This document shows positions 19,097 through 39,659 of a DNA stretch of 52,676 bases, piece after piece. Every line of letters starts with the position of its first letter. Position 1 is the stretch's first letter. The stretch comes from Thermoanaerobaculia bacterium (GTDB taxonomy: Bacteria > Acidobacteriota > Thermoanaerobaculia > Multivoradales > JAIOJS01): the NCBI GenBank assembly GCA_030429235.1, contig JAUIDB010000007.1:1-52676 (forward strand), read 5' to 3'. The notes beneath the pieces are model-generated. The model was not told where the DNA came from. It saw nothing but the letters and a program-made list of their open reading frames with translations, and searched no databases. The translations under genes and the position numbers were made by a program.

Positions 19097-20857
19097 ATGG
19101 TCTCGCCCCAACCTCTCGTACGGCCGACCGGGCCTCGCCTTCCTGGCCGCGCTCGATGTCTGGTTCTCTCTGGCCTCCTGGCAGTGGCCTCTGCCTGCGC
19201 TCCTCCGCCACCGACCACCGAGACCACGGTTGGGTCAGAGGAGCCGGAGATCGGCGCAGTGGAAGCTCCCTCCGCTCCGCTCTTCGTCGAGGCGACCGAC
19301 GACTGGGGACTGCAGTTCGTGCATCAGGCTGGCGCGGTCGAGGACTATCCGGCCGAGGCGGTGATGGGGTCGGGCTTGGCGCTGTTCGACTGTGACGGAG
19401 ATCTCGATCTCGACCTTTTTCTAGTGCAGGGCACGGCATCGGCTCCCCACCAGCTCTACCTTCAGGAGGCGGGCCGCTTCGTGCGCCAGGTCGGCGACTT
19501 CGAAGGGGAGCGGAGCGGCTACGGCATGGGCGTCGCGGTCGGCGACATCGACCGCGACGGTGACTCCGACCTCTACGTCACCCAGGTCGGCGAAGATCGT
19601 CTCTACCGTAACGACGGTGCGTGTGGTTTCGAGGACGTGACGGTCTGGGCCGGGGTCGCGGTCGACGGCTGGTCTTCATCCGCCGCCTTCTGCGACCTCG
19701 ACGCCGACGGTTGGCTGGACCTCTATGTGGCGCGGGATGTCGTCCTGGACCGCGCCCGCGAGTGCCGCGACAGCACCGGCCGGGTGGAGTTCTGCGGCCC
19801 GGAATCCTTCGCCGACGCTCAGGACGTCGTCCTCCGCAATCGGGGTGGGGGGCGCTTCGAAGATGCCACCGAAGCGTTCGGCGTCTCGGCTCGCACCGGC
19901 TCGGGCCTAGGGGTCCTCTGTCACGATCTCGACGCCGACGGCAGGACCGATGTGTACGTGGCCAACGATGCCGATCCCAACCAACTCTGGATCCAGCAGG
20001 ACGACGGGACCCTGGTCGATCAGGCGGTGGTCCTCGGGGTGGCGGTCAACGGTCAGGGCAGCCCGGAGGCCGGGATGGGAGTGGTGGCCGAAGACCTCGA
20101 CGGCGATGGCACGCTCGATCTGTTCCTGACCCACCTGGAGGACGAGAGCAACACTCTCTACCGCAACCTCGGCCGCGACCTGGGGTGGGACGATGCCACC
20201 TCGGCTCTGGGGCTTGCGGCGCCGAGTGTTCGCTGGACCGGGTTTGGCGTCGTCGCCGCCGATTTCGATCTGGACGGCTGGCGCGACCTGGCGATCGCCA
20301 ACGGCAAGGTGAAACGGGGTCGTTCGGTTCCGAACGGACTGCCAGCGCCGTGGAACGACTACGCCGAGCCCAATCTCCTCTTTCGGGGCGGGCCGGGAGG
20401 TTTCGTGTTGGCCACCACCGCGGGCGGGGCCTTTGCGGAGAGCATCGAACTGAGTCGTGGTCTGGTGGCCGGCGATCTCGACCGCGACGGGGATCTGGAT
20501 CTGGTGGTGACGAACGTCAACGGGCCTGCGCGGATCTACCGGACCGACAGTCCCTCGAACCATCGCTGGCTGGTCGTAGACCCCGTCGACTCCGGGGCGG
20601 CAGGGACCGTACTGGGCGCTCGGGTCGAGGTGGTAGCGAAGACGGGGCCGGCGACGCGGCGTCGCTGGCTGGGGGTCACCACGACCGGCGGCTCCTATCT
20701 CTCGAGCCGTCCGGGCGCCCTCCACTTCGGCCTGGGAGAGGCCTCGCGGGTCGAGTCCATCCAGGTGACCTGGCCCGATGGGTTCCGCGAGAGTTTTCCG
20801 GGCGGGGCGGTTTCAGAATTCAGGCGGCTCGAGCGTGGCGCCGGAGATCCGGTTTGA
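19097..20857 (+). CDS. CRTAC1-family FG-GAP/UnbV lipoprotein (module 1)
   Basis: 586 residues from ATG 19097 (a GTG at 19073 would add eight). Lipobox LAVASAC puts the lipidated Cys at 34. The body is a predicted seven-bladed propeller: seven DxDxDGxxDL-type calcium loops such as DIDRDGDSDLYV, DLDADGWLDLYV and DLDGDGTLDLFL. A Cys-pair insert ECRDSTGRVEFCGPESF follows the third repeat. The C-terminus is an UnbV/ASPIC domain ending in VTWPDG. Such proteins are secreted, calcium-binding and of unknown function in bacteria. The stop overlaps the next start in TTGA, so it is co-translated with a TPR lipoprotein. Confidence 0.88.
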   Translation: MVSPQPLVRPTGPRLPGRARCLVLSGLLAVASACAPPPPTTETTVGSEEPEIGAVEAPSAPLFVEATDDWGLQFVHQAGAVEDYPAEAVMGSGLALFDCDGDLDLDLFLVQGTASAPHQLYLQEAGRFVRQVGDFEGERSGYGMGVAVGDIDRDGDSDLYVTQVGEDRLYRNDGACGFEDVTVWAGVAVDGWSSSAAFCDLDADGWLDLYVARDVVLDRARECRDSTGRVEFCGPESFADAQDVVLRNRGGGRFEDATEAFGVSARTGSGLGVLCHDLDADGRTDVYVANDADPNQLWIQQDDGTLVDQAVVLGVAVNGQGSPEAGMGVVAEDLDGDGTLDLFLTHLEDESNTLYRNLGRDLGWDDATSALGLAAPSVRWTGFGVVAADFDLDGWRDLAIANGKVKRGRSVPNGLPAPWNDYAEPNLLFRGGPGGFVLATTAGGAFAESIELSRGLVAGDLDRDGDLDLVVTNVNGPARIYRTDSPSNHRWLVVDPVDSGAAGTVLGARVEVVAKTGPATRRRWLGVTTTGGSYLSSRPGALHFGLGEASRVESIQVTWPDGFRESFPGGAVSEFRRLERGAGDPV

Positions 20858-22299
20858 AAAGTGGGACGCCCCTCGTACTGCTGCTGGCTGGGGTCGCGGT
20901 GTTCGCCGCGGGCTGCCTCGGGGACCGCCCGAGCGCTGGGGGCGACGTCTCCGGGCAGCCCTCGACGGCGGTGGGTCTCGAGTCGGCACCGGCGGTCCCG
21001 AGCCCTGACCTCGACGGAATGGAACCGGCGGTGCGACGACGCCTCGACGAGCTTCGACAGGCGGTGCTTCGTCAGCCCCGTTCGGCCCGGGCCTGGGGCA
21101 GCTACGGGAAGGTCCTGCACGCCCAGTCCCTGCACGAGGCCGCCATCGAAACCTACCGTCGGGCAGCCGAACTCGCTCCCGAGGACGAGCGCTGGTCCTA
21201 CTTTCTGGGGGACGCCCTGGCCATCGAGGGCAGCGATCCCGAGGCGGCCATCGCGGCGTTCGAACGAACCCTGGAGTTGCGTCCCGAATACCCACCGGCC
21301 CACCTGCGACTCGGCCAGGTCCACGCCGCCGCCGGCGACCCGGCACGGGCGGAAACCGCGTTTCGAGAGGCGCTACGACTGCGCCCGACCCTGGCGCCGG
21401 CCCGCCTCGGGCTGGGACAGGCGCTGTTGGCCCAGGGCAAGCTGGACGAAGCCCTGACCGTGCTCGAGGAGGCGGCACGGCGCGCCCCTGAGACCGCGGC
21501 CGTCCACTTCTCGCTGAGCCGGGCGTATCGACTGAGCGGTCGCCGCGACGACGCCCGTCGATCGGCCGAGCTGGCCCAGAGGGTATCGGGTGTCGACTTC
21601 TACGACGACCCGCTACTGGCCGAGGTCGAGCGCGAGGTCGTCAGCAGCTCGGCTCTACTGGCGCGAGCCCGGGACCGGCTCGAGGCCGGTGAGGCGGGTG
21701 GCGCCTTGACCGACCTCGATCGCGCCGTGCGGTCGCGACCGGAGGACCCGGACGTGCACCAACTTCGGGGCGCCGCTTTGGCGGAGTTGGGGAGAGCCGA
21801 CGCCGCCGCGGATGCCCTCGAGCGCGCCCTCGAACTCGATCCGGCGCGGCACCCGCTGTACGCCCAGGCCGTGCTGCTCGAACTCCAGGCCGGCGATCCC
21901 CGGGCGGCCTGGGAGATGGCGCAAGCGGGCCTTGCGGTCACGCCGGAGGATCGGGAGCTCAGGGCGTTGAGGGCCCGTGCTCTACTGGCGGGAGGCCATC
22001 TGGAGACCGCCGCCGAGGAGTTTGCCGCCCTCGCCGCCGGCGGTCCGGTCGACGCCTGGCTCTACGACGAATGGGGTACGGCGGAGGCGCGCCTCGGCCA
22101 GTTCGAGCCTGCGATCCTCCGCTTCCAGCAGGCTCTGGCCCTGGAACCGGAGAACACGCTGGTCCTGTTCCACCTCGGGCTTGCCCTGGAGGGAGCGGGG
22201 CGGACGGTCGAGGCGATCGAGATGTACCGTCGAGCCCAAAGCCTGGAGCCGAGTCCGCTGGTGCAGGGACGGCTCGATCTCCTGGTGGGGGCGCGGTAG
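20854..22299 (+). CDS. TPR lipoprotein (module 1)
   Basis: 481 residues from TTG 20854, overlapping the CRTAC1 stop by four bases. Lipobox VFAAGC gives Cys21. After a Pro/Gly linker it has a conserved opening (LDGMEPAVRRRLDELRQAV) and then about nine tetratricopeptide repeats, for example AAIETYRRAAELAPEDERWSY, AIAAFERTLELRPEYPPAHL, and a final AILRFQQALALEPENTLVLF. TPRs mediate protein-protein contacts, and the obvious partner is the adjacent CRTAC1 protein. The very similar TPR lipoprotein at 32730-34169 shares the same opening and spacing. The frame is open upstream into the CRTAC1 gene, but that part is shadow. Confidence 0.9.
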   Translation: MKSGTPLVLLLAGVAVFAAGCLGDRPSAGGDVSGQPSTAVGLESAPAVPSPDLDGMEPAVRRRLDELRQAVLRQPRSARAWGSYGKVLHAQSLHEAAIETYRRAAELAPEDERWSYFLGDALAIEGSDPEAAIAAFERTLELRPEYPPAHLRLGQVHAAAGDPARAETAFREALRLRPTLAPARLGLGQALLAQGKLDEALTVLEEAARRAPETAAVHFSLSRAYRLSGRRDDARRSAELAQRVSGVDFYDDPLLAEVEREVVSSSALLARARDRLEAGEAGGALTDLDRAVRSRPEDPDVHQLRGAALAELGRADAAADALERALELDPARHPLYAQAVLLELQAGDPRAAWEMAQAGLAVTPEDRELRALRARALLAGGHLETAAEEFAALAAGGPVDAWLYDEWGTAEARLGQFEPAILRFQQALALEPENTLVLFHLGLALEGAGRTVEAIEMYRRAQSLEPSPLVQGRLDLLVGAR

Positions 22300-22308
22300 G
22301 CTCGTCGC

Positions 22309-22851
22309 GTGGAGCCTCTACGCACCGAACGACTGCTGCTTCGTCCGTTCGAACTCTCCGACGCGGCGTTCATCGAGACCTTGGTGAACGAACCTCCGTT
22401 TCTCCGGTTCGTGGGCGACAAGGGTGTCCGCAACCGTCGGGATGCGGAGCGCTACCTGCGGGAGGGGCCGATCGCGAGCTACGCCCGGCATGGTCATGGT
22501 CTGTACTGCGTCGAGCGTCAAGCCGACCGGGTTCCACTCGGCATGTGTGGCCTCGTGCGCCGGCCCGAGCTCTCCGGTCCCGATCTCGGTTACGGCTTCA
22601 GCCAGCGCTACTGGGGGCGGGGTTACGCTCGCGAGGCTGCCGTCGCCTGCGTCGAGGAGGCCCGGACGCTGGGGGTCTCGACGCTCCTGGCCATCACGAG
22701 TCCCGACAACGAGCCTTCGGCTCGGCTCCTGCGGCAGTTGGGAATGCAACGCGTGCCCGGTGGCATCGCCGTAGGAGAGGACCGCCCCGATCTCTACGAG
22801 CTTCGATTGCAAGGGGCGGCCGGCAGATCAGGGTCGGCAGAAGTCCTCTAG
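22309..22851 (+). CDS. GNAT-family N-acetyltransferase (RimJ/RimL-like)
   Basis: 180 residues from GTG 22309, nine bases after the TPR lipoprotein stop. It starts with LRTERLLLRPFELSDAAFIE, typical of the Acetyltransf_3 (RimJ/RimL) group. The acetyl-CoA motif A is visible in LGYGFSQRYWGRGYAREAAVACVEEA, with the Q/RxxGxG/A phosphate loop as RYWGRGYA; motif B is TSPDNEPSARLLRQLGMQR. It acetylates an unknown amine, either a protein N-terminus or a small molecule. Its last 24 bases overlap the 3-prime end of the convergent secreted-protein gene. Confidence 0.9.
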   Translation: MEPLRTERLLLRPFELSDAAFIETLVNEPPFLRFVGDKGVRNRRDAERYLREGPIASYARHGHGLYCVERQADRVPLGMCGLVRRPELSGPDLGYGFSQRYWGRGYAREAAVACVEEARTLGVSTLLAITSPDNEPSARLLRQLGMQRVPGGIAVGEDRPDLYELRLQGAAGRSGSAEVL

Positions 22852-24297
22852 CGACATCGACCCGGCGGCGATACCGAACCGGTCCTCGGCTCGAACGATG
22901 GGCAGCATCCAGGACTGTAGGTCCTCGATGAGGGGCACTCCGATGATGCCGTTGAAGTAGGTCGCGTCCATGTCGATCACTCCGAAGGCGCGCGGTACCG
23001 GGTTCGGTTCCCCGATCTGGAAACGGCGCACCAGTTCGACCGTGGTCAGCGATTCGTCGGCGAGCGACACGCCCTGTTCGTCGTAGAGCTGGAAGCCGAA
23101 GCTCACGAAGACGCCCTGGTTCTGAGGTTCGGTGCAGTCCGTCGGCCCGAAGTTGCCCGAGGTCCAGGCGAGGATCTCGGTCTCGGCGGCGAACGCACCG
23201 CCGTCGAGAAAGCGCGCGCGCCAGGCGTGGGGCAGGGGTCGGCGGTGGTCGTGGTCGCGATAGAAGGAGTACGAGCTGGTGCCGGTGGAGCCGGCCGGCA
23301 CACCGTAGCGCTCGGCATCGGCGAACAGCGACACCAGGGTCTCGCCTTCAGCGAGGTCCTGGCCGCTGAGGACGAGATAGAAGTCCCCCCAGAGTACGTT
23401 GTCCTGGGTCGCAATCGACGCATCCAGGTCGGATTCGAAGTAGCCGGCGTCCCAGGGGTCGACGACGACGTCTCCCGAACACTGACGGACGACATCGATC
23501 GTGACGTACCCGGTGGCCACCTCGGCGTTCTCCCCGGGACTCGAGTAGCAGAGCGAGTCGTCGGGGTTCGGCTGACCGGTGAAGAGGGCGCGGACCGCGG
23601 CGGCGTCGTAGGTTGGGTTGGTCAGGGGGGTGGTGCACCCAGAATCGGCGGCGGTCGGCAGCGAACTCTGCGGAATGTCGCCCCGCAACAGATTGGCGAT
23701 GTCGAAGGTGCGCATCCCGTCCACCGGCAACACGGTGTCGAACGAGAGCAGGGGCCATCCCCAGTTGGTCCAGAGGACGACGTGCACCAGGGTCGGCTGG
23801 TTCGCGACGGAGCCGATGGCGAACAGCGTACGTTGCCCCTCGGGGTCGTCGAGGTTGGCCTCGAAGTAGGGCAGGAGCAGGCTGGCGGCGGGGCGGTCGG
23901 CGGCGTCGCACTGTACCGCCGGCACCACTTCGAAGTCGACCGACACTCGCTCGACCGCGTTGCTGCCGAAAACAGGGGCCTCGACCGTTGCGGTATAGCT
24001 GCCCGGGTCCAAGCGGTCGATCGCGGTCAGCGCGGAGTAGGGCTGCGGACCGGGGATCGGCACGCAGTCCGGGGGAGACTCCAGCAGTACCAGGATCTCC
24101 GACCCTTCGACGGTGGTGCTGACCACCTCGGGCGGGCAGTTGTCGCCCCAGTTTGGCTCGTGGTAGCGGACTCGCGGGATGTCGCGGGTATTCGGCGTCG
24201 TCGGCAACACCGAGGTGGTGCCGGCGGACACGCCTCCAGGAGAGAACACCAGCAGCAGGATCGGGGTCGCGAGGGAGAGTAGGGTTGAGCGGGTCAT
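22828..24297 (-). CDS. Secreted protein of unknown function
   Basis: 489 residues from ATG 24297 with GAGGT six bases upstream. A signal peptide covers residues 1-25 (cleaved after GVSA). I do not recognise a named domain. Visible features are an early Pro-rich beta segment (about 60-130), then ASLLLPYFEANLDDPEGQRTLF and a VHVVLWTNWGWPLLSFD stretch. Scattered pairs of cysteines (CDAAD, SGCTTP, CYSSP, CSGD, DCTEP, FCRP) could form disulfides. A middle part discusses no metal or catalytic motif. The tail ends in SMSLEDFCRP. It probably is a surface or periplasmic beta-rich protein. About 150 bases separate it from the next gene upstream. Confidence 0.8.
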   Translation of the reverse strand: MTRSTLLSLATPILLLVFSPGGVSAGTTSVLPTTPNTRDIPRVRYHEPNWGDNCPPEVVSTTVEGSEILVLLESPPDCVPIPGPQPYSALTAIDRLDPGSYTATVEAPVFGSNAVERVSVDFEVVPAVQCDAADRPAASLLLPYFEANLDDPEGQRTLFAIGSVANQPTLVHVVLWTNWGWPLLSFDTVLPVDGMRTFDIANLLRGDIPQSSLPTAADSGCTTPLTNPTYDAAAVRALFTGQPNPDDSLCYSSPGENAEVATGYVTIDVVRQCSGDVVVDPWDAGYFESDLDASIATQDNVLWGDFYLVLSGQDLAEGETLVSLFADAERYGVPAGSTGTSSYSFYRDHDHRRPLPHAWRARFLDGGAFAAETEILAWTSGNFGPTDCTEPQNQGVFVSFGFQLYDEQGVSLADESLTTVELVRRFQIGEPNPVPRAFGVIDMDATYFNGIIGVPLIEDLQSWMLPIVRAEDRFGIAAGSMSLEDFCRP

Positions 24298-24451
24298 CGG
24301 ACTACCTCGTGGGGGCGGGTCGGAACGTGGGGCGGCTGGGACCGCCTGGCCTCTATTCTCTAACGCGCAGCCGGCGTGCTCCGAGGGTCTCGGATCGGAC
24401 CGCGTTCACTCCCGAAGTCGCCCCCACGGAAGCGGCGGCGCTGCCCTGATG

Positions 24452-24913
24452 TCACGACGGGTCCCGCGGTTCCGGGTCGGAGGTGGCCTCCGTGAGGGCC
24501 TCGATCTCGGGATGACGGTGACCGTAGAGCAAGCCGAGGAGACCGAGAAAGATCACGGCCCCCGGGGCGAGCACCGGGATCTCACCAGCTAGCGCCTGGC
24601 GGACGAGCTCGGTGCCGGTCAGGTCAGGCGCTGGTTCGAGGGCCGAGGCCAGGTTGCTCTGGTAGTGCTTCCACAGACCGGTTGCCCCGAGTGCGACCAA
24701 TCCAGCGCTGAGCAACTCGAACCACCGGAGGCGCCAGCTCCCCCGGCCCGCCAGGGCCCAGAGGCTCGACACCAGCCCCAGGGCAAGCAGGAAGAGCGGC
24801 AGTCGCTGGATGAGATCCTCATGATGGCCGATCAGCCAGAGCTCGGCGAGCAGCCCGGTGCACCCGAGGGCAAAGAGCACCAGGAGGCGATGACGGAGGC
24901 CGAGCTCCTTCAT
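24452..24913 (-). CDS. Four-helix membrane protein, function unknown (module 2)
   Basis: 153 residues. Four hydrophobic helices are visible at about 8-28, 37-56, 64-81 and 112-132, with a short polar C-terminus rich in Glu and Pro. No family is recognised. Its ATG overlaps the stop of the TPR gene (ATGA), making it the third gene of a CRTAC1-TPR-membrane protein operon. Modules 1 and 3 lack this gene, so it may be a specific addition, for example an inner-membrane anchor. Confidence 0.72.
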   Translation of the reverse strand: MKELGLRHRLLVLFALGCTGLLAELWLIGHHEDLIQRLPLFLLALGLVSSLWALAGRGSWRLRWFELLSAGLVALGATGLWKHYQSNLASALEPAPDLTGTELVRQALAGEIPVLAPGAVIFLGLLGLLYGHRHPEIEALTEATSDPEPRDPS

Positions 24914-25911
24914 CGCCGAACCCGGTCGGCGAGCGTTTGCACCCTGGGGTCGCCGGGATGGTCTCGCACCGCGGGTCCCAAGTGGATGCGCGCGGTTCCC
25001 GGCTGCCCGTTGGACAGCAGGGCCTCCACCAGGTCCAGGCGGCGCTCCAGGTTTCCGGGGTCGACCGACAGCTCGGCCTCGAGCAACCGGATCCGCTCCT
25101 CCACGGCTTTCTGGGTGCGGAAGCGTTCCACCGCCTGGCGACCGGCCTCGCGCCGACCGCTGCGCAGCAGCACCTGCGAGTAGACGTAGAGCACATCGCT
25201 GCGGTTGGAGTGCTCGTTGGCTAGTCTCTCGAGATCGGGCAGCGCGGCGGCGGCTTCTCCTCGGCGGAGCTGGATCTGGCCGAGCAGGATGCGGGTCTCG
25301 ACATCGGTCGGGGCGCGGCTCGCCGCCGCCGCGGCGTGGCCCAGGGCGGCTTCGAGGTCATCTCGCGCCAGAGCGATCTCGGCCAGTCCCCGCAGGGCGG
25401 CGGGATCGTCGCGGGCCGCTCGCCCTGCGAGATCGAGTTGCAGTTCGGCCTCGTCGAGTTGGCCGAGCCGTAGCAGCGCCAGCGCCCGGTAAATCGTCGG
25501 ATTGGGATTGTCGCGGGCCATGGTCTGGGCGCGGGCGAGCGCCTCTTCGGCTTCCGGATACCGCGCGCTCAGATAGAGGGTGTAGCCGACCATGAACGCG
25601 GCCAGTCCGTCCCCTGGGTCGGCGGCGAGGGCGGCCTCGAAGTTGCGGCGGGCCGGCACCCACAGCCCCGCCGCCAGATGCGCTTGCCCCAGAAGAACCT
25701 GGAGCTGCGGATCGTCGGGCCGAGCGAGTTCGGCGAGTCTCAACCGCTCGATCGCGTCGTAGACCTGGCCGGCGCGGAGGGCTTGGACTCCGGCCTGGAA
25801 GGCCGCCTCGGGATCCGCACCCTGGGATCGGGCCGCCGGGCTCGCGCCCAGGAGCGAGGCGACCAGAGTCAGCGCCGCGATCCAGCCCGCCGGTGAGCTC
25901 GTGCGGCTCAT
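24910..25911 (-). CDS. Secreted TPR protein (module 2)
   Basis: 333 residues from ATG 25911, overlapping the CRTAC1 stop in ATGA. It has a signal peptide (1-29, ASPAARSQG region) without a lipobox, unlike the TPR proteins of modules 1 and 3. The rest is TPR-rich: AFQAGVQALRAGQVYDAIERL, ARRNFEAALAADPGDGLAAF, AEEALARAQTMARDNPNPTIY, and further repeats to about 320. It is followed by a coupled membrane-protein gene. The shared operon layout makes it the functional equivalent of the other two TPR proteins, though it is shorter and its repeats are clearly diverged. Confidence 0.9.
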   Translation of the reverse strand: MSRTSSPAGWIAALTLVASLLGASPAARSQGADPEAAFQAGVQALRAGQVYDAIERLRLAELARPDDPQLQVLLGQAHLAAGLWVPARRNFEAALAADPGDGLAAFMVGYTLYLSARYPEAEEALARAQTMARDNPNPTIYRALALLRLGQLDEAELQLDLAGRAARDDPAALRGLAEIALARDDLEAALGHAAAAASRAPTDVETRILLGQIQLRRGEAAAALPDLERLANEHSNRSDVLYVYSQVLLRSGRREAGRQAVERFRTQKAVEERIRLLEAELSVDPGNLERRLDLVEALLSNGQPGTARIHLGPAVRDHPGDPRVQTLADRVRR

Positions 25912-27608: not shown

Positions 27609-27834
27609 GGCGGGAAATCTAGCACGTCGTTCCGAGGCTGCGGCTCCGTTCTCGCCAACAGGCTGGAATTCAACGACTTGAAGCGCGGCACGAGTTCCTG
27701 AACCGAGAGCGGGCCATGGAGCACCTTGCGAAGGCGTCAGGGCCCGTGTTCATTGGCCTCTGGCGAATTGGCCCGGTTCTTGCGGTCAGATGTGGAAGCA
27801 CATGTTCCGGCAAACAACATGGAGGACAGACCAC

Positions 27835-30800
27835 ATGCGCCGAACTCTAACGTTCGCCGCCCTGGCATTTCTGCTGGCCGCAGGAGCGGCCTTCGGACAA
27901 GCCCAGCGCGGCACCATCTCGATCCAGGTCCAGGCCGACGACGGCAGCGCCCTTCCGGGTGCCACCGTCTCCGCGGCTTCCGACCAGACCCTGACTCGCC
28001 GTACGGTGATTACCGGCAGCGACGGTTCTGCCACCCTGGTAGGACTCGATCCGGCGACCAACTACGTGGTGGAGGTCTCGCTGGAGAGCTTCGGAACCGC
28101 GCGGTTCGAAAACGTACTCGTCAAAGCGGGGCAATCGACGCCACTGCAAGCTCAACTCAGCCTGGCTACGATCTCCGAAGAGGTGGTCGTCACCGGTGAG
28201 TTGCCGCTGGTCGACATCACCAGTGCCCAAACCGGCGAAGACATTACCCTGCAACTGACCGAGGCGCTACCGACGGCGCGCTCGTACCAGGACTACCTGC
28301 AGCTGGTTCCTGGTGTGCAGGCGACCATCGACGGCGAAGGCAATCCGGCCTCCCGCTCGGGCATCAACTACCGGGACGTGCTCGGTGAGGTCGGTCGCTC
28401 GACGGACAACTTCTACTACTTCGACGGGATCAACGTCACCGACAACGTGACGGGGACCTTCGGAGCCAATCTCAACACCGAGATCATCCAAGAACAGTCG
28501 GTGCTCACGGGGGGGATTCCGGCCGAGTTCGTCGGCGCTCCTGGCCTGATTTCGAACGTGGTGACCAAGTCCGGCGGCAACGACTTCTCGGGCTCGGTGA
28601 ACTACTACTTCCAGGACGACAGCCTGGTCGACGACAACGAGCACTTCGCCAACCAGAGTTTCTCGCGTTTCGATACCGCGGTCACGCTGGGTGGTCCCCT
28701 GGTGCGTGACAAGGCCTGGTTCTACGCCAGCTACCGGTTGCTCGAGCGCGAGGACGACGTGATCAGTCCCGACGACAACTCGTTGCTGCGCTCGGTGACC
28801 AACGAGTCGGACCAGGGGTTTGCGAAGTTGACCTGGGCCATTACCGACCAGGACCTCTTCTCCGGACTGTTCCTGAGTGATCCGTCCGACATCTCCGGTC
28901 GCCGGGACAACAACCTCTCGAACGCCCGCGACTTCGCTCGCGAACAGGGAGGAGAGCGCTTCTCGCTGAACTACAACCGGGTCTTCTCGAACCTGTTCGT
29001 CGAACTCGGCTACAGCGATCACGAGGGCGACCTCAACGACACGCCAACCATCCTCGAGGCCGAGAACACGGCGTCCTTCCGCAACACCGACGTCTTCCGC
29101 CAGTCCGACGAGCAACTCGGCGGTGACGGCGACCTCGACCTGGACACGCGAGGCAACGAGCTCACGCGGTTGTCCGTCGAGTGGCTGGGCGACTCGTCGT
29201 TTGGCGACCACAACGTCAAAGGTGGCTACGAGTTCGGCGAGTCGTTCCTCTTCGAGGACGAGCGCTTCGTCGATGGCGCCCAGTACGTTTCGCTGTCGAG
29301 CCGCTACACCGGCCAGGGCATCCGCCTGGGCCAGATCGACGGCACGGACGGCGGTGGTGGTTTCTCGACCACCTCGTTCGTTTCGGACAACCAGGATAAC
29401 GTCAACGGTTTGAACAACTTCCTGGCCACCCATCCGCGGCGAGGCGAGATCCTGGCGGCCCACGACCTGGACGGCAACGGCATCCTCTCGGGGGACGAGC
29501 TGGCCCAGATGCAGTTCTTCTCGACTGCCGGCAACCCACACGGACAGATCAACTACACGCGCGATCTCGAGACCGCCTCGGGGCAGCGGACGATGACCTC
29601 CGAGGTCAACGCCGCGTACGTGCAGGACCTCTGGCAGTGGAACCGCTGGAGCATCAACCTCGGGGTCCGTGCCGAGCGGTTCGAGCACTTCGCGTCGACC
29701 GGCGCTCGGGTCCACGATTTCGGCTGGGAGTACGCTCCGCGTCTCAGCGTGGCCTACGACCTGCGCGGTGACGGGCGGCAGCGTCTGTCGCTCTACTACG
29801 GTCGGTACTACGATGCCATCCGCAACAACATGACGGCCTTCGCCGGATCGTTGAACGGACAGCAGGTCGAGGAGCAGCTCTGGTTCGAGTCGATCGGTGA
29901 GTACGTCACCTATCGCGAGCGTGGTGGCCCCACCACCCAGAACGGCTTCTTTGCTCCGAACATTCGGACCCCGTACACCGACGAGCTCCAGCTCGGTTAC
30001 AAGCAGGATCTCGGCAACAACATGAGCTTCGAGGCCAACGTCATCCGTCGTGAGACGAGCGACATCATGGAGGACTTCAGCCCGACGCTCTACACCGATG
30101 CGGCCGACTACATCGCCCACGGCGGCGATCTGTCGGATCCGAACTCGCTCTTCCTGGGCGAGGACTACTTCGGCTTCGGGGCCGCCGGCCAGCCGCAGGC
30201 GAATTTCTTCATCTCCACCCTGCCGCCGGAGGCGTTCCGAGAGTGGACCGGAGTGGAACTCGTACTGCGCAAGCGCTACAGCGACAACTGGCAGGCCCTG
30301 GCCTCCTACAACTACGCCGACGCTGAAGGCAACACCAACTCCGACGGTCTCGCCGACTTCGGCGGCGACGTGCTCTGGTTGGACCCGCGGGCGCCCAACG
30401 TCGAGGGCACGCAGCCCGGACTGGTCGAGCACCTGTTCAAGGTCGCGGCATCCTACGACTGGGACAACGGCTTCCAGGTGGGTGGTGCCTACCGGTACAA
30501 CTCGGGCGTCGTGGCCAACGTTTCCGGACAGGTCGCCTTCGACCGTCACATCCCGCAGCGGGTCTCGAGTTCCTTCGAGTTCGCCGGGATCAACGATCGT
30601 TGGATCGACGCGAGTTCGGTCGGTCAGTACGAGAACCCGTCGTACGGGATCCTCGATCTGCGGGCCGCCTATCTCTGGGATATCAACGGTCGGATGACCG
30701 CCGACTTCTTCCTCGACATCTTCAACGTCTTGGACGAACAGGAGGCGGCCCGGGAGCAGACCCTGGTCGGGGGAGGCTCGGGCTTCCAATTCGGCCAGGG

Positions 30801-30855
30801 AGTCGTGTTCAACGATCCCAGACGCTACTTCCTGGGAGCGCGCTTGCGCTTCTGA
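27835..30855 (+). CDS. Oar-like TonB-dependent outer-membrane receptor 1
   Basis: 1006 residues from ATG 27835, nine bases after GGAGG at 27821-27825. A signal peptide (1-21) is followed by a carboxypeptidase-regulatory-like beta domain (about 23-105, with LPGATVSAAS), a plug domain (about 120-245, with YYFDGINVT and ISNVVTKSGGNDFSG), and a large barrel ending in RRYFLGARLRF, whose terminal Phe fits BAM recognition. Residues 544-555 form a perfect EF-hand-like loop (DLDGNGILSGDE), predicted to be in an extracellular loop. It is closely similar to the receptor at 34357. Substrate unknown; Oar-type receptors take up or display large molecules. Confidence 0.93.
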   Translation: MRRTLTFAALAFLLAAGAAFGQAQRGTISIQVQADDGSALPGATVSAASDQTLTRRTVITGSDGSATLVGLDPATNYVVEVSLESFGTARFENVLVKAGQSTPLQAQLSLATISEEVVVTGELPLVDITSAQTGEDITLQLTEALPTARSYQDYLQLVPGVQATIDGEGNPASRSGINYRDVLGEVGRSTDNFYYFDGINVTDNVTGTFGANLNTEIIQEQSVLTGGIPAEFVGAPGLISNVVTKSGGNDFSGSVNYYFQDDSLVDDNEHFANQSFSRFDTAVTLGGPLVRDKAWFYASYRLLEREDDVISPDDNSLLRSVTNESDQGFAKLTWAITDQDLFSGLFLSDPSDISGRRDNNLSNARDFAREQGGERFSLNYNRVFSNLFVELGYSDHEGDLNDTPTILEAENTASFRNTDVFRQSDEQLGGDGDLDLDTRGNELTRLSVEWLGDSSFGDHNVKGGYEFGESFLFEDERFVDGAQYVSLSSRYTGQGIRLGQIDGTDGGGGFSTTSFVSDNQDNVNGLNNFLATHPRRGEILAAHDLDGNGILSGDELAQMQFFSTAGNPHGQINYTRDLETASGQRTMTSEVNAAYVQDLWQWNRWSINLGVRAERFEHFASTGARVHDFGWEYAPRLSVAYDLRGDGRQRLSLYYGRYYDAIRNNMTAFAGSLNGQQVEEQLWFESIGEYVTYRERGGPTTQNGFFAPNIRTPYTDELQLGYKQDLGNNMSFEANVIRRETSDIMEDFSPTLYTDAADYIAHGGDLSDPNSLFLGEDYFGFGAAGQPQANFFISTLPPEAFREWTGVELVLRKRYSDNWQALASYNYADAEGNTNSDGLADFGGDVLWLDPRAPNVEGTQPGLVEHLFKVAASYDWDNGFQVGGAYRYNSGVVANVSGQVAFDRHIPQRVSSSFEFAGINDRWIDASSVGQYENPSYGILDLRAAYLWDINGRMTADFFLDIFNVLDEQEAAREQTLVGGGSGFQFGQGVVFNDPRRYFLGARLRF

Positions 30856-30879
30856 CGGTCCCTAGACCTACGGAACTAC

Positions 30880-30912
30880 GAGGGGAGCGGGCAACCGCTC
30901 CCCTCTTCTCTT
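30880..30912 (+). terminator. Intrinsic terminator after TonB receptor 1
   Basis: GAGGGGAGCGG (30880-30890) pairs perfectly with CCGCTCCCCTC (30895-30905) around a GCAA tetraloop, followed by a pyrimidine run TTCTCTT. It separates the receptor from the downstream CRTAC1 gene, so the two are likely separate transcripts. Confidence 0.85.
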
Positions 30913-30918
30913 GCACGC

Positions 30919-30947
30919 TTGGGATTTCCCGATCGGCGGGCTACGAT
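30919..30947 (+). promoter_or_regulatory. Probable sigma70-type promoter of CRTAC1 module 3
   Basis: TTGGGA at 30919-30924 and TACGAT at 30942-30947 are separated by 17 bases. Transcription would begin near 30954, only about six bases before the ATG at 30961, which has no ribosome binding site; the message would be nearly leaderless. Confidence 0.5.
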
Positions 30948-30960
30948 CCTCGCTCGCCCG

Positions 30961-32733
30961 ATGCCGCACCCACCGTCATTCGCAGACCACCGACCCGAGT
31001 GGACCCTCAGAACGCTCCCTCGGGGGTGGGCTCGGGGCGCGGTCTGGCTGGTCCTCGGGCTGGCAGCGTGTTCCAGTCCTCCCGAGGAGACGACCCTGGC
31101 GGAGCCTGCGGGAACGGTGTCGCGGGAGGCTGTCGCGCCCGACCGAGCTCCGCTGCTGGTGGCGGCTGAGGCCGGGCTCGGCGTGACCTTCCGGCACGAT
31201 GCCGGGGCCGACGGAGGCATGCGCTTCCCCGAGATGATGGGAGGAGGCGTCGCGCTCTTGGACGCCGACGGTGACTCGGATCTCGACCTCTACTTCGTCT
31301 CCGGGGCCAGCCCCAACCAGCTCTTTCTCCAGGAGACCCCAGGCCAGTTCGTCGATCGCACCGAAGTCTCGGGCCTCGGCGATACGGGGTACGGCACGGG
31401 GGTCGCCGTGGGTGATGTCGACAATGACGGGAAGCAGGATCTGTTTCTCTCCAACATCGGTCCCGACCGGCTCTATCGTGGTCTGGGCGGTGGGAGGTTC
31501 GAGGACGTCAGTGCTCATGCGGGCATCGGTGCGACGGGAACCGAAGCGGACGACTGGTCGACCTCGGCCGCCTTCTGCGACGTCGATCGCGACGGCTGGC
31601 TCGATCTCTACGTCGTGCGCTACGTGGTGTACGACCCGACCGTGACCTGTACCGATGCCACCGGACGCCGTGAGTACTGTGGTCCCGATAGCTTCGAAGA
31701 TCGTGGCGACGTGCTGCTGCGCAACCGGGGTGACGGGACCTTCGTCGATATCACCAACTCGGCGGGTATCGAGGCTGCCACCGGGGCGGGCCTGGGCGTC
31801 GTGTGCGAAGACCTCGACGACGACGGGTGGGTGGACATCTACGTGGCCAACGACGGCGACCCTAATCAACTCTGGGTCAACCAGGGGGCGACGAGGGACG
31901 GCGTGCGGTTCGTCGACGAGGCGCTGATTCTGGGGACGAGTGTCAATGCCGAAGGGCTCCAGGAAGCGGGCATGGGGGTGGTGGCGGCGGACTTCGACAA
32001 TGACGCCGACTTCGATCTGTTCCTCACCCACCTGCGCGACGAGACCAATACGCTCTACCGCAACCTCGGGCAGGGAACCGGGTTTCAGGACGAGACGCGC
32101 CGCGCCGCGCTGGGCACCGCCAGCACTCCCTTCACCGGCTTCGGGACCGCGCCGCTGGATCTCGACCTCGACGGCGACCTCGATCTGGTGATCGCCAACG
32201 GTCGGGTCAAGCGGGCGCCGCCCCTGACCGAGGACCTCGACGAACCCTGGCGCTGGTTTGCCGAGCCCAACCAGGTCTACGGGAACGAGGGGGGTATCTT
32301 CCGGCTGCTCGAGAGCGAGGTCGCGGCCTTCACGACGCCGATCGAGATCGGTCGCGGTCTGGCGTGTGGTGATCTCGATCAGGACGGTGACCTCGATCTC
32401 GTCCTCAACAACCTCGAGGGCCCGGCCCGCCTCTACCTGGGCCAGCCCGACCCCGAGCACCACTGGCTGGTGGTCGACGCCTTCGACCCGCGCCTGAATC
32501 GGCGTGCGCTGGGCAGCCGGATCACACTGCGCGGGACCCACGGCGATCAGGTTCGCTCGATCCAGAGCGCCATGAGCTACCTGTCGTCGAGCGACCCGCG
32601 GGCGCACTTCGGTCTGGGGCGAGAGGCCGGGGCCGTCGAGGTCGAGGTCCGGTGGCCCGATGGACTCGAGGAGCGGTTCGGCCCGATCGAGGTCAACCAG
32701 GCCGTCACCCTGGAGCGGGGAACGGGCCAGTGA
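30961..32733 (+). CDS. CRTAC1-family FG-GAP/UnbV lipoprotein (module 3)
   Basis: 590 residues from ATG 30961 (a TTG at 30919 would add 14 residues but falls in the promoter). Lipobox LGLAAC puts the lipidated Cys at 37. Seven calcium loops are visible (for example DVDNDGKQDLFL, DVDRDGWLDLYV, DLDDDGWVDIYV, DLDQDGDLDLVL), with the Cys-pair insert TCTDATGRREYCGPDSF and an UnbV/ASPIC C-terminus ending VEVRWPDG. It is close to the module 1 protein along its whole length, including the NDxDPNQLW and DExNTLYRNLG segments, so the two arose by duplication. The stop overlaps the next start in GTGA. Confidence 0.88.
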   Translation: MPHPPSFADHRPEWTLRTLPRGWARGAVWLVLGLAACSSPPEETTLAEPAGTVSREAVAPDRAPLLVAAEAGLGVTFRHDAGADGGMRFPEMMGGGVALLDADGDSDLDLYFVSGASPNQLFLQETPGQFVDRTEVSGLGDTGYGTGVAVGDVDNDGKQDLFLSNIGPDRLYRGLGGGRFEDVSAHAGIGATGTEADDWSTSAAFCDVDRDGWLDLYVVRYVVYDPTVTCTDATGRREYCGPDSFEDRGDVLLRNRGDGTFVDITNSAGIEAATGAGLGVVCEDLDDDGWVDIYVANDGDPNQLWVNQGATRDGVRFVDEALILGTSVNAEGLQEAGMGVVAADFDNDADFDLFLTHLRDETNTLYRNLGQGTGFQDETRRAALGTASTPFTGFGTAPLDLDLDGDLDLVIANGRVKRAPPLTEDLDEPWRWFAEPNQVYGNEGGIFRLLESEVAAFTTPIEIGRGLACGDLDQDGDLDLVLNNLEGPARLYLGQPDPEHHWLVVDAFDPRLNRRALGSRITLRGTHGDQVRSIQSAMSYLSSSDPRAHFGLGREAGAVEVEVRWPDGLEERFGPIEVNQAVTLERGTGQ

Positions 32734-34169
32734 GGGGAGGGCGCACGGCCGCTCGCGTGGTCTCGAGCGTGGCGCTGGCCGCCCTACTCGGGCTCGGAGC
32801 GGGGTGCGGAGGTGAGAGGGGAGAGGACGGGCCGCCGCCCCGCGAGGTGCCGGCGGTCATCGCTGATCTCGATCTCTCAGAGATGGAGCCACAAGTGGCA
32901 GCCCGACTCCGCCAGACCCGGCGTGCCGTGCGCTCAGAGGCCGACTCGGCCCTGGCCTGGGGCGAGTTCGGTCGGGTGGCCCATGCTCACGACCTCTGGG
33001 AGCCGGCCGCCACCGCCTACCGGCGGGCCGCCGAACTGGACCCCGAGGAGCCCCGGTGGCCCTATTATCTCGGCGACGTACTGGTCGTCCAGGGCACGGA
33101 CCCCATGGCCGCGGTGGAGGCCTTCCGCCAGGCTCTGGCGCTCGCGCCCGACTACGGCCCGGCGCACTTCCGCCTGGCCAGTGCCCTGGTCACGGCGGAC
33201 GACCCTCAGGCGGCCCGACCCCACTTCGAGCGGGCGCTGGAGTTCGCCCCCGACCTGCAGCCGGCTCGAGTCGGCTTGGCCCAGCTGCTCCTGGCCGAGG
33301 GCGACGCGGAGAACGCAGCTCGATTGCTCGAGCAGGTCCTGGAGGTTGCGCCCCGCCACGGCCAGGCGATCTCGGCCCTGGGTCAGGCCTACATGCGACT
33401 GGGTCGGCGGGACGAGGCCCGCGCCGTGGCCGAGCGAGCCAGCGAAGCGGCCGCCTTCAACCTGTTCGACGATCCTTGGATGTCTCAGGTGGTCGCCGAA
33501 GGCGTCTCGGCGGTGCTGATCTGGGATCGGGCGAAGGCGTTCCTCGACAACGGCGACAACGAGCAGGCGGTTCTCGGCCTCCGACAGGTGGTCGATCGGC
33601 TTCCGGACAACGCCGAGGCGCACCAGCAGCTGGCCGTGGCGTACGGCAATCTGGGGGAGACCAGCTCCGCCGCCCGGCATCTCGAGCAAGCCGTGGCCCT
33701 CGATCCGGAGAACCTGGCGGCAAGGGTCCAGCTGGCGACGGCCTGGCTGGAGCTGCAGCGACCTCTCGAAGCGATTCCCCATCTCGAAGCGGTGCTGCAG
33801 CAGAACCCTGAGGATCTCGACGCACCCTGGCTGATGGGGCGAGCCGAGATTCTGGCCGGCCGACTCGAGCTGGGGATTGCGACCTTCGAAGGGGCCCTGG
33901 CGGCGGGACGCGAACCACCGCCGTGGGCCCGTAACGATTGGGGCAACGGCCTCGCTCAACTGGGGAGAGTCGAACAGGCCCTGGCCCAGTTCGAGGCGGT
34001 GCTGGCCGAGCAACCCGAAGAACCCCAGGCCCTCTTTTTCAGCGGACTGCTCTACGAGGGTCGGGGCGAGCTAGCCCGAGCTCTAGAGCTGTACTGTCGA
34101 TCGATGCGCTCGGAGCCCAGCCCTCCGGCCCAGGCGCGACTCCAGGCCCATCGGTACCCCTGTCTCTGA
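32730..34169 (+). CDS. TPR lipoprotein (module 3)
   Basis: 479 residues from GTG 32730, overlapping the CRTAC1 stop by four bases. Lipobox LGLGAGC gives Cys26. It opens with LDLSEMEPQVAARLRQTRRAV, matching the module 1 protein, and then has about nine TPRs, such as AATAYRRAAELDPEEPRWPYY, AVEAFRQALALAPDYGPAHF and ALAQFEAVLAEQPEEPQALF. The same middle segment FNLFDDPW (FYDDPLL in module 1) separates two TPR blocks. The likely partner is the adjacent CRTAC1 lipoprotein. The frame is open upstream inside CRTAC1 and that part is shadow. Confidence 0.9.
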   Translation: MRGGRTAARVVSSVALAALLGLGAGCGGERGEDGPPPREVPAVIADLDLSEMEPQVAARLRQTRRAVRSEADSALAWGEFGRVAHAHDLWEPAATAYRRAAELDPEEPRWPYYLGDVLVVQGTDPMAAVEAFRQALALAPDYGPAHFRLASALVTADDPQAARPHFERALEFAPDLQPARVGLAQLLLAEGDAENAARLLEQVLEVAPRHGQAISALGQAYMRLGRRDEARAVAERASEAAAFNLFDDPWMSQVVAEGVSAVLIWDRAKAFLDNGDNEQAVLGLRQVVDRLPDNAEAHQQLAVAYGNLGETSSAARHLEQAVALDPENLAARVQLATAWLELQRPLEAIPHLEAVLQQNPEDLDAPWLMGRAEILAGRLELGIATFEGALAAGREPPPWARNDWGNGLAQLGRVEQALAQFEAVLAEQPEEPQALFFSGLLYEGRGELARALELYCRSMRSEPSPPAQARLQAHRYPCL

Positions 34170-34175
34170 TCGATC

Positions 34176-34197
34176 TTTCGCAATCCGGTTTGCGAAA
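34176..34197. promoter_or_regulatory. Perfect 8-bp inverted repeat next to the -35 box: operator candidate
   Basis: TTTCGCAA (34176-34183) and TTGCGAAA (34190-34197) flank TCCGGT. The repeat ends two bases before the -35 hexamer of the receptor 2 promoter and has no T-run of its own, so a regulator site is more likely than a terminator, although it also lies just after the TPR gene stop. Confidence 0.45.
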
Positions 34198-34199
34198 AG

Positions 34200-34228
34200 T
34201 TGAAAGAGCGGCCGGAAGTCGCTACACT
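34200..34228 (+). promoter_or_regulatory. Strong sigma70-like promoter of TonB receptor 2
   Basis: TTGAAA (34200-34205) and TACACT (34223-34228) are separated by exactly 17 bases. Transcription would begin near 34235, leaving a leader of about 120 bases before the ATG at 34357. Confidence 0.65.
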
Positions 34229-34356
34229 GACACCCATTCGTCACAGCCGTCTGCTCGAGGTTTGGCCTTGTCCGAGGTCTATTTCGGTAGACACTTTGTC
34301 GGCACTTAACCCCCGCGGGACGGCACTATTGCCGCCTCCCAAGCACAGGAGAAAGC

Positions 34357-37300
34357 ATGAAGAGAACTCTTTCCCTTGCCGTCGCCGGTCTTCTTGTCCT
34401 GGCCTCTAGCGCCTTTGGACAGGCCCAGCGCGGCTCCATCCAGGTCACGGTGACCGATGCCAGCGGCGCGGCCGTCCCTGGGGCTACGGTCAGCGTAGCG
34501 TCAGACGAGACCCTAACGCGCCGGGCCGTGCTCTCGGGTGACGACGGTGTTGCCACCGCAGTCTCGCTCGATCCGGCGGAGAACTACGTGGTGACCGTCA
34601 GCCTCGAGGGGTTCGGTACTAAGAAGGTACAGGGCGTGACCGTGCAGACGGGGCAGACGCAGGCTCTCGCCGTGCAGCTCCAGCTCGCCGAGATCACCGA
34701 GGAACTCGTGGTTACCGCTGAGGCCCCGCTGGTCGATGTCACCAAGACGCAAGCCGGCCAAAACATCACGTTGGCGCTGACCGAATCATTGCCGACGGCC
34801 CGTTCCTACCAGTCGTACCTCCAGCTCGTACCGGGCGTACAGGACAGTCTCGGTACCACCGAGAACCCGGCTTCCCGCTCCGGTATCAACTACCGGGACC
34901 TCGATGGCGCTGAGGGTGATGTCGGTCGTTCGACCGACAACCTGTACTACTTCGACGGCATCAACGTCACTGACCGCACGGCGGGCACCAACGGTGCCAA
35001 CCTCAACACCGAGATCATCCAGGAGCAGAGCGTCCTCACCGGAGCCATTCCGGCGGAGTTCGTCGGCGCACCCGGCCTGATCTCGAACGTCGTTACCAAG
35101 AGCGGCGGAAACGACTTCTCCGGGTCGGTCAACTACTACTTCCAGGACGACAGCCTGGTCGACGACAACAGCCACTTCCAGAACGAGAGCTTTTCGTCCT
35201 TCGACGCCGCGGCGACTCTGGGTGGTCCGATCGTGCGCGACAAGGCCTGGTTCTTCGCCAGCTACCGGATTCTGGAGACCGAGCGCGACGTGGTCAACGA
35301 GCAGGGTGAATACCTGCGGACCCCGAGTGCCGAGTCGGATCAGGGTTTCGCCAAGCTGACCTGGGCGATCACCAACAGCGACGTGATCTCCGGTCTCTTC
35401 CTGACCGATCCTCAGGACATCACGGGCAGCTTCAGCCGCTCGACTCCGAACTCTGCGGATTCTACGCAGGATCTTGGTGGTGATCGCTACAGCTTGGACT
35501 ACAGCCGGGTCTTCGGCTCGGCCGCGCTGGAGCTGGCTCTGACCGACCACAACGCGGACCTCAACCAGACCGGTAAAGACCGGACGCAGGCCAACGTCGT
35601 GGGTTTCGCCCCCGGCGTCTCCTTCACCTCGGCTGACGAGCGCCTCGGCGGCCTCGGCACCGACTTCGTCGAGACCCGTGAGACGTCCGCTGTGCGCGGT
35701 GCCCTCGAGTTCCTGTTCGATACCTCCTGGGGCGATCACTCGCTGAAGCTGGGTGCGGTCAGCAACGAGAGCATCCTGTTCGAGAACGATGCGACCGCCG
35801 GTGATCCGCCGGCGACCTATATCTCACTCAACTCTCGTGGCACCAGTGGCCCGATCGTTCTTTGTGAGGTCGTGGGCACTTGCACCGATTCGCCTTGGTC
35901 GACCGTCGACTTCGGTGTTTCGAGCGACGAGGTTGCTGGTTTCAACGAAGGCCTGACGGCCTCGCAGCGCACGCAGCTCCTGGCCGAATGGGACGACAAC
36001 AACAACGGCGTCCTCGATCAGGAGGAGATCCTGAACAACATGACGTTCGGAAGCACCGACGGCAACCCGCATGGGTTGGTCAACTACACCCGGGATCTGG
36101 AGACGCAGGCTGGACCGTCCAACAAGAAGTCGGAGTCGTTCCACTATTTCATCCAGGACGCCTGGCAGTGGAACCGCTGGAGTGTCAACGCCGGTGTACG
36201 GGCCGAGGAGACGACCTTCATCGACGACCTCGGCAACGACGTCGGGACTTGGGACACGGAGTTTGCTCCTCGTCTCAGCGTGGCCTACGACCTCAGCGGC
36301 AACGGCCGCAGCAGCGTCGGCCTCTTCTACGGCGAGTACTACGACGCGTTCCGTGATACGGCCATCGACTTCGCCGGTTCGCTCAACGGTCGTGTGATCG
36401 AGGAGCAGGTCTACGTCGAGGCACTCGGTGAGTGGGTCAACTTCCGCTTCCGCGGCGGTACCGCGGTGCAGGACGCCTTTTTCGCACCGGACATCAAGAC
36501 TCCGGTCACCGAAGAGCTGCAGCTGCAGTACAAGCAGGACCTCGGTCGAAACATGATGGTCGAGATCAACTACATCGACCGCGAGACCACCGACATCGGT
36601 GAGGACTACGGTTCGTTCTACTACAACATCGACGACTACGTCGGCCTGGGTGGTGATCCGAACGATCCGAACTCCTTCTTCCTCGGGCCCGAGTTCTTCG
36701 GGTTCAGTAGCCTCGGTGACATCCCGACCAACCTGAACTACCTGATCGGCACCCTGCCGGACGGGAACTTCCGCGATTGGCAGGGGGTCGAGCTCGTCTT
36801 CCGCAAGCGCTACAGCGACAACTGGCAGATGTTGGCGTCGTACAACTACGCCGACGGTGACGGCAACTCGAACTCGGATGCCAACTTCGACGGCGCCGGT
36901 GACGTGATCCTGCTCGATCCGCGGGCTCCCAACCGGACCGGTACCCAGCCTGGACTGGTCGAGCATCTGTTCAAGATGCACGGCTCCTACAGCTGGAACA
37001 ACGGCATCCAGGTGGGCGGTAGCTACCGTTGGAACAGCGGCATCATCCTCAACCGGAACGAGGGTCAGGCCTTCAGCCGGTCGTTGCCGGACCGAGTCAC
37101 CACCGACTTCGCCTACGGCGGTTGGCCGGGCGGTGGGTTCGAGGATACCTGGATCGCCGACGACGCGATCGGGTTCATCGACGGTTCCACCTACGGCGTG
37201 CTCGATCTGCGGGCGTCGTACCTGTGGGATGTCAGCGATCGGGTCGAGGTGGACTTCTTCCTCGACATCTTCAACGTCTTCGATGACCAGCAGCTGATTC

Positions 37301-37404
37301 GGGTCCAGGACCTTCTCGGCGGTGGAGGTGGCTTCGCCTACCTCGAAGGCATCGACTACGTCCAACCCAGGCGCTACTACCTGGGAGCGAGACTCCGCTT
37401 CTAG
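34357..37404 (+). CDS. Oar-like TonB-dependent outer-membrane receptor 2
   Basis: 1015 residues from ATG 34357 with AGGAG upstream. Domain order is the same as receptor 1: signal peptide (1-21), carboxypeptidase-regulatory-like domain (to about 105), plug (about 120-250), barrel, and the end RRYYLGARLRF. The plug-barrel junction shares a run of 41 identical residues with receptor 1, while extracellular loops differ, which suggests duplication followed by change of ligand. Residues 546-557 form an EF-hand-like loop (DDNNNGVLDQEE) at the equivalent position. It has its own promoter and a double terminator, so it is a single-gene transcript. Confidence 0.93.
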   Translation: MKRTLSLAVAGLLVLASSAFGQAQRGSIQVTVTDASGAAVPGATVSVASDETLTRRAVLSGDDGVATAVSLDPAENYVVTVSLEGFGTKKVQGVTVQTGQTQALAVQLQLAEITEELVVTAEAPLVDVTKTQAGQNITLALTESLPTARSYQSYLQLVPGVQDSLGTTENPASRSGINYRDLDGAEGDVGRSTDNLYYFDGINVTDRTAGTNGANLNTEIIQEQSVLTGAIPAEFVGAPGLISNVVTKSGGNDFSGSVNYYFQDDSLVDDNSHFQNESFSSFDAAATLGGPIVRDKAWFFASYRILETERDVVNEQGEYLRTPSAESDQGFAKLTWAITNSDVISGLFLTDPQDITGSFSRSTPNSADSTQDLGGDRYSLDYSRVFGSAALELALTDHNADLNQTGKDRTQANVVGFAPGVSFTSADERLGGLGTDFVETRETSAVRGALEFLFDTSWGDHSLKLGAVSNESILFENDATAGDPPATYISLNSRGTSGPIVLCEVVGTCTDSPWSTVDFGVSSDEVAGFNEGLTASQRTQLLAEWDDNNNGVLDQEEILNNMTFGSTDGNPHGLVNYTRDLETQAGPSNKKSESFHYFIQDAWQWNRWSVNAGVRAEETTFIDDLGNDVGTWDTEFAPRLSVAYDLSGNGRSSVGLFYGEYYDAFRDTAIDFAGSLNGRVIEEQVYVEALGEWVNFRFRGGTAVQDAFFAPDIKTPVTEELQLQYKQDLGRNMMVEINYIDRETTDIGEDYGSFYYNIDDYVGLGGDPNDPNSFFLGPEFFGFSSLGDIPTNLNYLIGTLPDGNFRDWQGVELVFRKRYSDNWQMLASYNYADGDGNSNSDANFDGAGDVILLDPRAPNRTGTQPGLVEHLFKMHGSYSWNNGIQVGGSYRWNSGIILNRNEGQAFSRSLPDRVTTDFAYGGWPGGGFEDTWIADDAIGFIDGSTYGVLDLRASYLWDVSDRVEVDFFLDIFNVFDDQQLIRVQDLLGGGGGFAYLEGIDYVQPRRYYLGARLRF

Positions 37405-37776
37405 GGTGACCTGGTCCGGGGCGTGAGGCCTTCGGGGCCTCGCGTCGGTGAGAAGCCCTCCTTCGGGAGGGCTTTTCTCTTTCTGGGCTCCTCGGTCGGA
37501 AAGCCCGAGCCGTACCCGGTGCCGACCGTAGAATGGGTGATCGCGCAGCCCTCGGCAGGGCAACCGCGGGCGCCAGGGGGACCTAGTACCGGTCTGCGAA
37601 TTCAGCCACACCGCGACGCCAAGCGTTTGGCGAGAGTCGGTGTCGACCTCTCGGTGCCGATCACCAGACCGAAAGCCAGGTCGGCTCCCGGAGGACGCCG
37701 ACCCGTCTCCGACGACCGACCCGACCTTGCCGATATCGAAGCGGTTGGGGCTCGGGTCGGAGAAGGAAGCCGAGGT
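37405..37776. other. Intergenic region between two convergent genes
   Basis: This 372-base stretch separates the ends of receptor 2 and the first VWFA-related gene. It holds the double terminator hairpin at its left end. In the rest I see no gene, RNA or repeat. Confidence 0.6.
37421..37482 (+). terminator. Tandem terminator hairpins after TonB receptor 2
   Basis: The first hairpin pairs GAGGCC (37425-37430) with GGCCTC (37436-37441), extended by a GCG/CGC clamp. The second is a 9-bp stem AAGCCCTCC/GGAGGGCTT (37453-37461, 37466-37474) around a TTCG tetraloop, followed by TTCTCTTTCT, a good intrinsic terminator. Confidence 0.9.
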
Positions 37777-39543: not shown

Positions 39544-39659
39544 CGGGTCACCTCGAAGATTCGTTGAAGGGCCAGTATGGGACGGACTCGTCCCTAGTCT
39601 ACCGCCGACAACAATCTTGCACCGGGGCTTGTTCCAGCCGACCGATCGTAGGGTCGGAG

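Follow-up and report, generated by a model that had tools for sequence, protein, structure and literature searches.

Oar-like TonB receptors kept with cognate CRTAC1 propeller and TPR gene pairs in Thermoanaerobaculia: a candidate lipoprotein-assisted transporter

Why three gene pairs, each encoding a CRTAC1/UnbV propeller protein and a tetratricopeptide repeat (TPR) protein, should lie interleaved with two Oar-like TonB receptors in a Thermoanaerobaculia genome, and whether their products act together at the cell surface, are the questions raised by this locus. The window, the whole stretch of 52,676 nucleotides that was analysed, belongs to a genome of 4.85 Mb in 92 contigs. Here, C denotes a CRTAC1/UnbV propeller protein, T a TPR protein, R an Oar-like TonB receptor and VWA a VWFA protein. 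Pfam searches confirmed the three pairs and two receptors in the predicted order, which between 19.1 and 37.4 kb reads C1-T1 (+), M2 and a small membrane protein (-), T2-C2 (-), R1 (+) and C3-T3-R2 (+). The cluster comprises two receptor units, T2-C2 divergent from R1 and C3-T3-R2, together with the orphan pair C1-T1. The TTG start of T1 (20854-22299, +) overlaps the stop of C1 (19097-20857, +) by 4 bp, T2 (24910-25911, -) and C2 (25908-27608, -) likewise overlap by 4 bp, and C3 (30961-32733, +) is followed by T3 (32757-34169, +), which is kept between C3 and R2. Five of the six pair proteins had been predicted to be lipoproteins, and this holds: a lipobox is present in C1 (ASAC), C2, C3, T1 (AAGC) and T3 (GAGC), and T2 carries a signal peptide with no lipobox. 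The membrane protein assigned to the second module corresponds to a 153-residue ORF downstream of T2 (24452-24913, -), hydrophobic by inspection. It adjoins M2 (22828-24297, -), a secreted protein of 489 residues with a homologue near C3 in a genome of the same genus (G001, locus L072); neither has a Pfam match. The 18-kb gene set stood as described, but two VWFA proteins of family TIGR03436 beside R2 (37777-41420, -) had been overlooked, namely VWA1 (37777-39543, -), convergent with R2, and VWA2 (39660-41420, -), which score 158 and 176 bits against a family cut-off of 81.

Terminator-like stem-loops lie 3' of R1 (30880-30905, +; 11-bp stem) and 3' of R2 (37450-37477, +; 12-bp stem), among terminator-like sites whose number in the region does not exceed that in shuffled sequence. 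With such a stem-loop behind it, R1 is probably not co-transcribed with C3-T3-R2. The T3-R2 gap contains a weak promoter-like site (34200-34228, +; consensus match 9/12). Alignment of the T-R gaps gave no conserved element except the ribosome-binding site, and a search for riboswitches or other known RNAs that might name a substrate returned one tRNA only.

FG-GAP_3 and UnbV_ASPIC domains score above the Pfam cut-off in C1, C2 and C3, and TPR families are found in T1, T2 and T3. The AF2 model of C3 (pLDDT 89) has murine CRTAC1 (PDB code 9etn; Z of 42, 26% identity over 458 aligned residues) as its best fold match, with BtuG and XusB absent among the matches listed. The C proteins are therefore CRTAC1-family members by FG-GAP propeller, UnbV/ASPIC domain and 9etn match. 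They share with animal CRTAC1 the propeller and the C-terminal UnbV/ASPIC domain and differ in being predicted lipoproteins paired with a TPR protein. Searches of T1, T2 and T3 gave no SusD Pfam match; in NCBIfam, weak hits to PilW, Tgl and GltE all fell below cut-off. The window's own genome contains natural fusions of TPR and FG-GAP modules, which suggests that C and T may interact. The large fusions are found at L031:6121-10443, L031:10460-13792, L029:7659-11081 and L030:10925-14293; both of those at L031 also carry UnbV, L031:6121-10443 with two UnbV domains.

R1 (27835-30855, +) and R2 (34357-37404, +) are 57% identical and contain OMP_b-brl_4 (PF25183) and CarboxypepD_reg (PF13620) domains, with a Plug domain in R1; no NCBIfam family matched either receptor at E 0.001. 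The AF2 model of R2, of moderate confidence (pLDDT 67), adopts a TonB-dependent transporter fold. BtuB, FhuA and Cir are among its top matches by Z (22-26). The matches also include BtuB-BtuG complexes of Bacteroides and one chain of a utilisome (PDB code 8a9y; Z of 22.6, level with many other matches), all Z values falling within a narrow range. Taking a plug and a 22-stranded barrel as the definition, with strands of the R2 model counted approximately, R1 and R2 are predicted TonB-dependent transporters on the basis of their Pfam domains, the R2 fold match and a C-terminal aromatic residue.

A single canonical EF-hand motif occupies an equivalent position in the receptors of the R1/R2 clade, DLDGNGILSGDE at residues 544-555 of R1 and DDNNNGVLDQEE at residues 546-557 of R2. 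The motif is present in 22 of 23 clade members, four of them from other classes of the phylum, in three of six intermediate relatives and in 0/20 distant Oar-like receptors (clade against all other receptors, Fisher 1e-9), and it thus provides a sequence marker for the clade. Asp-546 and Glu-557 of R2 are invariant across 19 orthologues. In the R2 model the loop is flanked by helices 535-545 and 555-561, with local pLDDT of about 80-88, and belongs to the longest extracellular loop, its side being assigned by strand counting in a model of pLDDT 67. The clade receptors are thus predicted to contain a calcium site of the 12-residue DxDxDGxIxxxE type between helices. Since DxDxDG-type loops also occur five or six times in each C propeller, the calcium link of the original prediction is plausible at the sequence level and gains independent backing from the receptors.

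With R2 as query, close relatives were found in 18 of 59 genomes of the order, and the surroundings of receptor relatives were mapped with the window proteins by tblastn. Wherever upstream sequence was available, C3-T3 lies directly upstream of the R2-type receptor on the same strand (9/9 genomes: window, G001, G010, G048, G044, G033, G054, G022 and G014), an order retained down to about 64% receptor identity. C2-T2 adjoins R1-type receptors, divergently or upstream, in five genomes (window, G046, G004:C17, G038 and G020); the other R1-type receptors are solo, about half of the assessable R1 orthologues having no adjoining C-T pair. In many cases orthologous receptors at 49-82% identity have the same neighbours. 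In the C tree, every C protein linked to R1 falls in one clade (100/100) and every one linked to R2 in a second (100/99), C1 being a neighbouring paralogue, sister to the C3 group. The pairings never mix: nine are C3-R2 and five C2-R1. Distances among C, T and R correlate at 0.61-0.73, a value with no species baseline and hence not counted as proof. The three pairs had been viewed as equivalent modules, a view that is ruled out, C2-T2 belonging with R1, C3-T3 with R2, and C1-T1 being an orphan paralogue with no cognate receptor. Solo R1 loci and the other classes likewise rule out C-T as a constant companion of the receptor clade: among four R1/R2-clade members in other classes, a CRTAC1 gene lies within 6 kb in one only. 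Because about half of the assessable R1 orthologues stand without an adjoining C-T pair, and three of these four members without a CRTAC1 gene within 6 kb, the receptor can work without a C-T pair.

That receptors and CRTAC1-TPR pairs belong together had been offered with its own refutation, no excess of pairs near TonB receptors over copy number; the comparison was run and an excess was found. Across 11 related genomes of the order, with expectations from gene density, hand-transcribed match lists and approximate receptor positions in the window's own genome, 21 of the 99 Oar-type receptors have a UnbV gene within 10 kb against 3.6 expected, among the matches listed (Poisson 3e-10, a significance inflated by clustering of paralogues). 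The excess stays when the R1/R2 clade is removed (15/91 against 3.2 expected, among the matches listed). Association with long-type TIGR03436 VWFA genes is also strong (22/99 against 1.8 expected), with no excess for short-type genes of the same family used as control (2 observed against 1.8 expected), and long VWFA genes lie near 14 of the 21 UnbV-adjacent receptors against 8 of the remaining 78, all among the matches listed. A VWA1 homologue lies beyond the R2 orthologue in 7 of 8 assessable genomes. Seen from the other side, about 25 of 169 CRTAC1 genes are near a receptor and the majority are not (among the matches listed); most CRTAC1-TPR pairs are not near any receptor. An integrin-like propeller/VWA pairing, that is a MIDAS-type adhesin, was rejected, VWA1 and VWA2 having no DxSxS at the expected strand end. 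A literature search found no description of a link between TIGR03436 and Oar-like receptors.

The original prediction likened the locus to SusCD with another second component. The likeness extends to an N-terminal CarboxypepD_reg receptor adjoining a putative surface lipoprotein, and receptor-lipoprotein linkage is upheld; membership of SusCD itself is ruled out, SusD (PF07980) having no match in ten genomes of the order against a positive Bacteroides control. SusD itself contains TPR units (PMC9599597), and the T proteins differ in having no SusD Pfam match. CRTAC1 is tied to TonB receptors independently in another phylum, Bacteroidota: in Tamlana fucoidanivorans a CRTAC1/UnbV gene lies directly beside SusC-SusD (sulfatase-SusC-SusD-CRTAC1); in a second locus, close to a hybrid sensor gene, SusD-SusC and CRTAC1 are divergent; and CRTAC1/UnbV is also found among sulfatase and glycoside hydrolase genes in a locus of this species. 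In mechanism, a better parallel than SusCD is the propeller lipoprotein lid, proven in Bacteroides for BtuB-BtuG (vitamin B12) and XusA-XusB (siderophore), where a TonB-dependent transporter is combined with a seven-bladed BtuG or XusB (PMC10404256, PMC13142918). In the window, too, a propeller lipoprotein is encoded with the receptor, as judged from the C3 model, lipobox and linkage, and is predicted to be surface exposed. Compared with those systems, the window propeller is of FG-GAP/CRTAC1 type with UnbV, has a TPR partner, belongs to an Acidobacteriota genome, would form its complex with an Oar-like receptor, and that receptor has an EF-hand motif. CRTAC1, TonB and tetratricopeptide were not found together in any paper, and in the available text of the Solibacter paper ASPIC/UnbV, TonB receptor and VWA appear as families of paralogues that are not combined into a system. 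The gene system is real and conserved, and it has apparently not been described before.

We propose, at a probability of roughly one half, that the locus encodes two lipoprotein-assisted TonB-dependent transporter units (C2-T2-R1 and C3-T3-R2) and a receptor-less pair C1-T1. Each of two lipoprotein gene pairs, kept by its own receptor, probably forms a lidded uptake device like those of gut Bacteroides but with no SusD. R would be an outer-membrane channel opened by TonB, and C, a seven-bladed lipoprotein propeller of CRTAC1 type stabilised by calcium, would trap ligand at the surface and sit over the receptor as a lid in the manner of BtuG and XusB. T, translated together with C, would tie C to R, the role of the TPR-bearing SusD in SusCD; the long extracellular EF-hand loop may bind Ca2+ and so order the docking surface, and VWA1 and VWA2 would be secreted accessory proteins. 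Gene content, cognate linkage, the predicted C and R folds, the EF-hand motif and the absence of SusD are directly supported, and we infer that the proteins bind one another in a complex, that C and T are surface exposed, that C serves as a lid, that Ca2+ is bound and that transport is inward, not outward. By analogy, an oligosaccharide or similar oligomer is the favoured substrate because flavobacterial CRTAC1 genes sit in glycan loci; the locus itself contains no enzyme or inner-membrane transporter pointing to import. More tentatively, and with rather less conviction than for the lidded units, there may be a class of lipoprotein-assisted TonB-dependent transporter outside Bacteroidota that lacks SusD: its CRTAC1 propeller and its TPR lipoprotein would dock on an Oar-like receptor via the EF-hand loop, with extracellular calcium controlling assembly or transport. 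Such a system would extend the lipoprotein-lid idea for TonB-dependent transporters past Bacteroidota, and the cognate receptor link gives a testable role to the CRTAC1/UnbV and TIGR03436 families, abundant and unexplained in Acidobacteriota.

The same proteins could serve export. Oar of Myxococcus xanthus shares with R1 and R2 the N-terminal CarboxypepD_reg-type extension, plug and barrel, and is needed for secretion of the protease PopC; the authors of that study state that no sequence features are known by which exporters can be told from importers (PMC6434023). Oar differs in lying in a Ton gene cluster; the neighbours of the window receptors are CRTAC1, TPR and VWFA genes. A receptor of this kind would secrete protein, with CRTAC1, VWFA or a transglutaminase-like TPR protein as cargo or surface partner, a reading compatible with the linkage to secreted VWFA proteins (22/99 against 1.8, among the matches listed), with transglutaminase-like TPR genes near receptors (9/26 against 0.5 expected) and with a locus devoid of import genes. 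Nevertheless, inspection of the locus revealed no protease like PopC, five of the six C and T proteins have a lipobox, and the Tamlana CRTAC1 genes occupy SusCD glycan loci, an import setting; export appears unlikely.

It is equally doubtful that lipoproteins and receptors are co-located simply as envelope functions duplicating in the same region, with no complex between them. UnbV, VWFA and Oar-like genes are numerous in the genome, and many R1 loci, as well as receptors beyond the order, no longer show the linkage, which would fit this reading; yet cognate pairs are unmixed, the short-type VWFA control shows no excess (2 against 1.8, among the matches listed) and C3-T3-R2 order persists to about 64% receptor identity. 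Animal CRTAC1 is an extracellular matrix protein, and TPR lipoproteins often serve assembly, so that C and T might be envelope assembly or adhesion proteins in which calcium loops merely stabilise folds, a reading to which the sub-threshold PilW, Tgl and GltE matches could be added. One specific pair per receptor and the association with SusCD in another phylum make this improbable, and the lidded transporter remains the preferred reading.

Several other genes recur around these receptors. A transglutaminase-like TPR protein with a possible conserved catalytic triad of Cys, His and Asp is found at L074:1566-2657, L075:2183-3157, L079:15245-16357, L078:6893-7948, L084:13104-15206 and L088:6347-7660, with 9/26 copies lying no more than 7.5 kb from a receptor; it is absent from the window, and the only copy in the same genome, a weaker one, lies on contig C33. 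A second Oar-type receptor subfamily, with no EF-hand motif, also adjoins CRTAC1 and VWFA genes (L105-L111, L043) in G029, G004:C1, G014:C142, G022:C53, G007, G025 and contig C90 of the window's genome. Secreted proteins combining TPR with CarboxypepD_reg, the domain type of the receptor N-terminus, lie near VWFA genes (L043:3544-4485, L073:3206-4480), and L072:13875-15170 resembles them by sequence only. Another Oar-like receptor of the same genome adjoins a sulfatase-TPR protein (L045:3015-4832). A multihaem cytochrome-like ORF (L081:11903-14095; CxxCH by eye) separates two R1-type receptors in G004, and in the window a c554-type cytochrome (42461-44641) is encoded some 5 kb downstream of R2. 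A minus-strand ORF with Arg/Ser-rich repeated units (44715-46199) is probably repeated non-coding DNA preceding an RHS gene (47287-52287).
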